Below are positions 24,460 to 27,146 of a stretch of 64,000 nt of DNA, piece after piece. The DNA lies in assembly GCA_937923175.1 (NCBI GenBank), contig CALALB010000009.1, positions 1 through 64,000 on the forward strand, read 5' to 3'. The position numbers and the translations under genes were made by a program. The stretch's first letter is position 1; every line of letters starts with the position of its first letter. Source of the DNA: an uncultured Chromatiaceae bacterium. Its GTDB lineage: Bacteria; Pseudomonadota; Gammaproteobacteria; Chromatiales; Chromatiaceae. Under the pieces are notes generated by a model, which made no database searches, was not told where the DNA came from, and worked only from the letters and a program-made list of their open reading frames with translations.

Positions 24460-25558
24460 ATGTCTGATATCAATTCATTATTCAATCAGATCGATGACCT
24501 TAGGGGACGCCTGGAGTCCCTCAGGGGGTATCTTTAACTACGCCGAGTCCAAGGATCGGCTCACCGAGGTCATGCGCGAGCTCGAGGAGCCGGCGCTCTG
24601 GAATGACCCCGAACGCGCCCAGTCACTGGGGCGCGAGCGGGCGCGGCTTGAGTCGGTGGTGCTGAAGATCGATCGGCTCAGCACAGCGCTTGCCGAGACA
24701 GAGGATCTCTTGCGGCTGGCTGCCGAAGAATCCGATGCAGCGACCATTAGCGCACTGGCCGCCGAGCTCAAGGGCCATGAGGCTGAGGTTGCAAACCTTG
24801 AATTTCGCCGGATGTTCTCGGGCGAGATGGATGCCTGCAATGCCTTTCTCGACATCCAGGCCGGATCAGGCGGCACCGAGGCCCAGGACTGGGCCGAGAT
24901 GCTGTTGCGCATGTATCTGCGCTGGGGCGAGCGCAAGGGATTCAAGACCGAGCTGCTCGAGGTCTCGCCGGGCGAGGTAGCTGGCATCAAATCGGCGACC
25001 GTCAGGTTTGAGGGCGACTATGCCTTCGGTTGGCTGCGCACCGAGATCGGGGTCCATCGGCTGGTGCGCAAATCGCCCTTTGATTCGGGCAACCGTCGGC
25101 ATACCTCCTTTGCTGCAGTCTTTGTGTCGCCCGAGATCGATGATTCGATCGAGATCGAGATCAACCCAGCGGATCTCAGGATCGATGTCTATCGCGCCTC
25201 AGGCGCTGGTGGTCAGCATGTCAACCGCACTGAGTCTGCGGTGCGCATCACCCATCTGCCGACCGGGATTGTGGTCCAGTGCCAAAACGATCGCTCCCAG
25301 CATAAAAACCGCGAGCAGGCGATGAAACAACTGCGCGCCAAGCTCTATGAGCTTGAGATGCAGAAACGGCGCGCCAGCCAGCAGGCCCTGGAGGAGAGCA
25401 AGGCCGACATCGGCTGGGGTAGCCAGATCCGCTCCTATGTCCTGGACCAGTCGCGGATCAAGGACCTGCGCACTGGTGTCGAGATCGCCAATACCCAGGC
25501 CGTGCTCGACGGCAACCTCGATCCATTCATCGAGGCGAGCCTGAAAGGCGGGTTGTAG
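24460..25558 (+). CDS. prfB: Peptide chain release factor 2, programmed +1 frameshift: join(24460..24534,24536..25558)
   Basis: Zero frame [25 protein letters not shown] then +1 frame [35 protein letters not shown]...; [22 protein letters not shown]; internal SD AGGGGG plus CTT TAA C. Confidence 0.96.
24523..24538 (+). promoter_or_regulatory. RF2 recoding site with UAA instead of UGA
   Basis: AGGGGGTATCTTTAAC; compare the E. coli arrangement AGGGGGTATCTTTGAC. Confidence 0.92.
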
Positions 25559-25610: not shown

Positions 25611-27146
25611 ATGAATGAAGAATCTCTCGTTGACCTGATTGGTCCCCAGGCCGAAGACCCAAATCGCCTGATCGCCCAGCGGCACGCCAAACTCGCCCGG
25701 TTGCGGGCCCAAGGACCTGCCTTTCCCAATGACTTTCGCCGCGATGCGCTGGCCGGTGAGCTTCATAACCGCTATGACACTCTAGAAAAGGACGTGCTCG
25801 AGAGGCGCGCCATCCCGGTGAGGCTGGCTGGTCGCCTGATGAGCCGGCGGATCATGGGCAAGGCAAGCTTTGCGCACCTGCAGGATATGTCGGGACGCAT
25901 CCAAATCTTCGTGCAGCGCGAGGGGATAGGTGAGGAGGCCTATGAGTTCTTCAAGCGCGAGCTCGACCTGGGCGATATCCTGGGGGTTTCGGGTCGGCTT
26001 TTTAAAACCAAGACGGGCGAATTGTCGGTGCGCTGCGAGCAGGTGCGCCTGCTCGTGAAGTCATTGCGTCCCCTGCCGGAAAAGTTTCATGGACTTGCTG
26101 ATACCGAGACCTGCTATCGCCAGCGTTATCTGGACCTGATCGTCAACCCAGAGACGCGCGCCCTTTTCCAGATGCGCAGTGCGATCGTGCGCTTCGTCCG
26201 CCAGTATCTGGATGCGCGCGGTTATCTCGAGGTCGAGACCCCCATGATGCAGGCTATCCCGGGCGGTGCAGTGGCCCGTCCATTCATCACCCATCACAAT
26301 GCCCTCGACATGCCACTCTTTTTGCGTATCGCCCCTGAACTCTATCTCAAGCGCCTGGTGGTCGGTGGATTCGAGAAGGTCTATGAGCTCAATCGCAACT
26401 TTAGGAACGAAGGGCTCTCGACCCGGCATAATCCCGAGTTCACCATGCTCGAGTTCTATGAGGCATACGCAGACTATCAGGATCTCATGGACATGACCGA
26501 GGACCTTTTGCGCCAGCTGGCCCTTGCGGTTTTGGGCACTACCCAGATCAGCTATCAGGGCCAGACCTATGACCTGGCCCGTCCCTTTGCCCGCTTGAGC
26601 GTGCGCGAGGCCCTGGTGCGTTTCAACCCCCAGCTTGATTCAGATGATCTCGATAAACCCGAGCAGCTGCGTGCCTTTCTTGAGCGATGCGGCATCAAGA
26701 CCCAGGGCGACTGGGGGATAGGTAAGCTGCAATACGAACTCTTTGAGCAGACGGTCGAGGAACGGCTTTTGGAGCCGACCTTTGTCACCGCCTATCCGAC
26801 CGAGGTCTCACCCCTGGCGCGGCGCAATGATCAGGACCCCCAGGTCACCGATCGCTTTGAGCTTTTCATCGGGGGGCGCGAGATCGCGAATGGTTTCTCC
26901 GAGCTCAATGACCCAGAGGATCAGGCCGAGCGTTTTCGCGCCCAGGCAGCAGCAAAGGCAGCCGGTGACCCAGAGGCCATGTATTACGATGCCGACTATA
27001 TCCGGGCGCTCGAATATGGTCTGCCGCCAACCGCAGGCGAGGGGATTGGGATCGACCGACTGGTGATGCTCTTTACCGACTCGCCCTCGATTCGCGATGT
27101 CTTGCTCTTCCCGCATCTGCGTCCCGAATCCAAACCCTCTGGCTAG
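25611..27146 (+). CDS. lysS: Lysyl-tRNA synthetase (class II)
   Basis: [84 protein letters not shown]; follows prfB. Confidence 0.96.

Follow-up and report, generated by a model that had tools for sequence, protein, structure and literature searches.

The window, a 64,000-nucleotide stretch from the genome of an uncultured Chromatiaceae bacterium, contains the RF2 gene prfB at positions 24460-25558 of the plus strand, followed directly 3' and on the same strand by an ORF (25611..27146) whose translation was assigned by eye to the lysS-like lysyl-tRNA synthetases; prfB followed by lysS is the usual arrangement. The gene is divided between two reading frames. ORF1 (24460..24537, plus strand), as read from the sequence and its translation, is a short zero-frame ORF of 25 codons ending at an in-frame UAA stop, which is codon 26. 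ORF2 (24536..25558, plus strand; stop codon at 25556-25558) codes in the +1 frame for the 340 amino acids of the RF2 body. In a profile search its product matched TIGR00020 with a score of 503 bits (cut-off, 370), and it contains both the SPF codon-recognition motif and the GGQ motif, which identified it as an RF2 protein.

The junction of the two ORFs contains the elements of a programmed +1 frameshift site, all of them on the plus strand. An internal Shine-Dalgarno-like stimulator, AGGGGG (24523..24528), which is near-invariant in relatives and has a computed anti-Shine-Dalgarno duplex of -10.7 kcal/mol, is located 3 nt 5' of the slip codon, the intervening codon being TAT (24529-24531). It is followed by the slippery sequence CTT_T (24532..24535, with CTT at 24532-24534), also present in relatives, on which tRNA-Leu would slip +1, and by the zero-frame stop UAA (24535-24537) and a C at 24538, where the canonical site has UGA C. 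The complete cassette, AGGGGG-TAT-CTT-TAA-C (24523-24538), differs from the textbook site solely in the middle base of the stop codon, which can still be read by RF2 but is not the RF2-exclusive UGA. These results confirmed to the base the first-pass annotation, which had described a prfB programmed frameshift with a UAA stop and RF2 in the +1 frame, and had considered the internal Shine-Dalgarno and the slip codon to match the classical site: the middle base of the stop was the only canonical element missing. One G-to-A substitution, turning UGA into UAA, separates the locus from a standard prfB programmed +1 frameshift cassette.

Alternatively, translation of RF2 might start within the +1 frame, with the site being bypassed. 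This frame is open for 48 codons upstream, and it holds three candidate starts (TTG 24416, TTG 24443, and ATG 24494). A Shine-Dalgarno sequence was sought at these three codons and none was found, the best duplex being -1.5 kcal/mol or weaker; ATG 24460 showed the best anti-Shine-Dalgarno duplex among the candidate starts (-3.1 kcal/mol). Moreover, the equivalent +1-frame stretch of the sister species (G004; see below) contains no start codon, and the entire cassette is conserved. Judging from these sequence features, there is most likely no plausible start bypassing the frameshift, and we attach very little probability to this explanation.

The distribution of TAA at this site was analyzed in related genomes. 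Within the genus, the sister species G004, assembled as one contig, has an identical TAA site, and six other congeners have TGA. Thus, the conservation of CTTTAAC in close relatives, a point raised in the first-pass annotation, holds for the sister species and breaks down in the other six. In the order, the TGA-or-TAA motif was detected in 191 of 210 genomes, and five of these 191, from four genera, have TAA: the window genome (G000), G004, and one species in each of three other genera, which by identity of the surrounding DNA match Thiocapsa imhoffii, Candidatus Thiodictyon intracellulare, and Thiospirillum jenense. Since the assembly of the window genome is a draft of 96 contigs, the A at 24536 could be thought to be a sequencing or assembly error. 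However, the identical base occurs in G004, an independent genome assembled as a single contig, and in three further genera; because the same TAA motif starts prfB in all of them, chance and base-calling error were excluded, and an assembly error retains next to no probability. Two other drafts, G075 and G131, contain two copies each of the prfB frameshift motif on separate contigs, possibly reflecting contaminating DNA, a mixture of strains, or the duplication of contig ends.

A maximum-likelihood tree was built from 32 RF2 genes. The window genome and G004 formed a 100/100 clade beside the TGA congeners, and four independent TGA-to-TAA changes were needed, all of them forced by well-supported branches. 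As far as can be judged from these RF2 sequences, the topology requires no fewer than four origins of TAA in the family. When a strict TAA pattern was run against the genome collection, 20 matches were obtained, 12 of which were genuine prfB starts from several lineages: Gammaproteobacteria (Legionella, Marinospirillum, Serratia symbiotica, and others), Neisseriaceae, Comamonadaceae, and a Sumerlaeia bin. The remaining eight lacked a GGQ domain and were discarded as chance matches. Another sample, drawn separately from across the phylum, comprised 60 prfB starts, of which 45 had the frameshift, two of these 45 with TAA. The rarity of UAA at this site, stated in the first-pass annotation, was borne out by the five cases among 191 in the order and by published data: Prince, Lin and Feaga (mBio 2025; PMC12421855) divide 8,164 motif-bearing genomes into TGA (98.6%) and TAA (1.4%) with no TAG, report the TAA cases to be scattered across phyla yet retained within species, and note one non-TGA sequence in earlier small surveys. 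Other deviations from the canonical site were also observed. At loci L086 (genome G312) and L127 (G037), the base after the TGA of the prfB frameshift site is G or A, not C, and the residue after the shift is Glu. Loci L096 and L101 (G239 and G243), viewed beside L092-L099, have an in-frame prfB without frameshift in which the sequence at the old site (RGHL, KGHL) is still like that of frameshifting relatives; these are possible recent losses.

Stop-codon usage was compared between genomes with each type of site. Long ORFs were taken, with a crude ORF caller, from samples of 100-148 kb (the window and loci L129-L148). In the TAA-site genomes G000 and G004, 30% and 29% of them end in TAA, compared with 17% and 7% in the two TGA-site congeners sampled (pooled Fisher p 0.0007); the comparison represents one phylogenetic contrast. 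We take this only as a lead: the prfB site may have been taken along as the lineage as a whole drifted from TGA to TAA.

The window genome contains genes for RF1, RF3, and PrmC, and its RF1 has the GGQ and PET motifs. RF1 was likewise intact, with both motifs, in all five TAA species, and loss of RF1 was therefore rejected as the reason why UAA is tolerated. The RF2 encoded in the window contains the motif YRASGAGGQ, with Ala at the residue equivalent to position 246 of E. coli RF2 (Ala246 type). A kinetic study of the prfB shift site was reportedly carried out by Liao et al. in 2008. In E. coli, Ala246 RF2 shares UAA decoding with RF1 (PMC5373646), and the amount of RF2 is about five times that of RF1 (PMC4989110). 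With UAG as the stop, assays of CUU_U frameshifting have given values consistent with the UGA ones (PMC5009743). For a native CUUUAA prfB site, our literature search found no frameshifting measurement.

Based on the arrangement of the locus, we propose, with a probability of about 0.72, that full-length RF2 needs the +1 shift and that the UAA site would act as a blunted sensor, driven mostly by RF2, of a weighted sum of RF2 and RF1. The ribosome would pause at UAA, and only ribosomes that slip on CUU_U ahead of release-factor action would yield full-length RF2, with a predicted length of 365 aa and the junction ...RGYL-NYAESK. Frameshifting would be in competition with termination, to which both RF2 and RF1 contribute. 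UAA being a codon for RF1 too, the site would gauge both factors and not RF2 alone, as the codon specificities of the two factors lead one to expect. The loop would probably be mostly RF2-driven, since RF2 is usually more abundant than RF1 and is here of the UAA-competent Ala246 type. Lower basal frameshifting and a weaker induction upon a drop in RF2 would be expected, and the maximum response would be lower, since termination by RF1 would continue as RF2 declines. The variant would be old enough to be common to two sister species, and tolerated rather than newly functional. A bolder proposal, which we advance tentatively and with considerable doubt, is that the change from UGA to UAA rewired RF2 synthesis in such a way that RF1 represses RF2 production, the site being a natural two-factor homeostat of total UAA-terminating capacity kept since before the split of the sister species.

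Two other views of regulation have to be weighed against the blunted sensor. The UAA site could be indifferent to which release factor acts, if either factor alone saturates termination; prfB would then be effectively constitutive, with a low fixed shift rate and no response to RF2. This would agree with data from B. subtilis in Lalanne et al. (PMC8073009), in which UAA stops show no queues under depletion of RF1 or RF2, and the replacement of UGA by UAA at the RF2-sensitive rsbV abolished its response to depletion of either factor, so that regulation here could vanish entirely rather than be blunted. However, frameshifting is a kinetic competition that requires no queue, and termination is weakened by the C at +4. 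In addition, the two sister species, although diverged, have the remainder of the cassette in fully conserved form; this is a weak argument, since that remainder is also needed simply for making RF2. A complete loss of the response to RF2 thus seems unlikely to us. At the other extreme, UAA could be functionally equal to UGA, with RF2 carrying out nearly all termination at UAA and autoregulation being unchanged. This is the position of Prince et al. (PMC12421855), who argue that TAA sites stay RF2-regulated because RF2 reads UAA well, and the Ala246 type of the present RF2 is in its favor. Against it, RF1 is present and intact, and TAA is rare and confined to a species pair at most in the order, which suggests that the change is not neutral.

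The protein sequence also bears on this equivalence. After the shift, the A-site codon is formed by the last two bases of the stop plus C, UGA C giving GAC (Asp) and UAA C giving AAC (Asn), and because stop bases are reused in this way, stop identity and residue 26 are locked together. Counted by eye, residue 26 of 15 non-frameshifting prfB genes was Asp in nine, Asn in four, and Gln in two. Asn is thus common in non-frameshifting RF2s (4/15) versus frameshifting ones (2/45, both TAA; Fisher p 0.03) in this sample of 60 prfB genes, which is small and made up of species that are not phylogenetically independent. A protein constraint on Asp26 was consequently insufficient as the whole reason for TGA conservation and, Asn being acceptable to the RF2 protein, the rarity of TAA suggests that the stop itself is under selection. 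This counts further against UAA and UGA being equivalent, which we consider quite improbable. Reasoning from the genetic code, the absence of TAG is weaker evidence for RF2 exclusivity or autoregulation than claimed, because going from TGA to TAG needs two substitutions, either via TAA or via TGG, which is not a stop; TAG C would give Ser. A search for TAG versions in the order gave one pattern match, in G202, which is not prfB; the same genome also matches the TGA/TAA motif, and that match is not TAA.

In the textbook feedback loop of prfB, the stop codon acts as the sensor, and the repeated occurrence of natural UAA versions beside close TGA relatives provides a ready comparison on the need for an RF2-exclusive stop. 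For such sites, Prince et al. (PMC12421855) and Lalanne et al. (PMC8073009) lead to opposite predictions. Since the Asp/Asn coupling confounds stop identity with protein sequence at a single base, surveys of stop identity should control for it.

The site shares with canonical prfB (E. coli, AGGGGG UAU CUU UGA C) the internal Shine-Dalgarno, its spacing, CUU_U, the stop at codon 26, the C at +4, and an RF2 body in the +1 frame; it differs in the UAA stop, which RF1 can also read, and in having Asn, not Asp, as the first residue after the shift. With respect to the published TAA motifs (PMC12421855), there is no difference in kind: those are likewise CTTTAA within an otherwise canonical motif, and phylogenetically scattered. 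The UAA variant at prfB is therefore not new, and the present site is one more instance of a documented rare variant.
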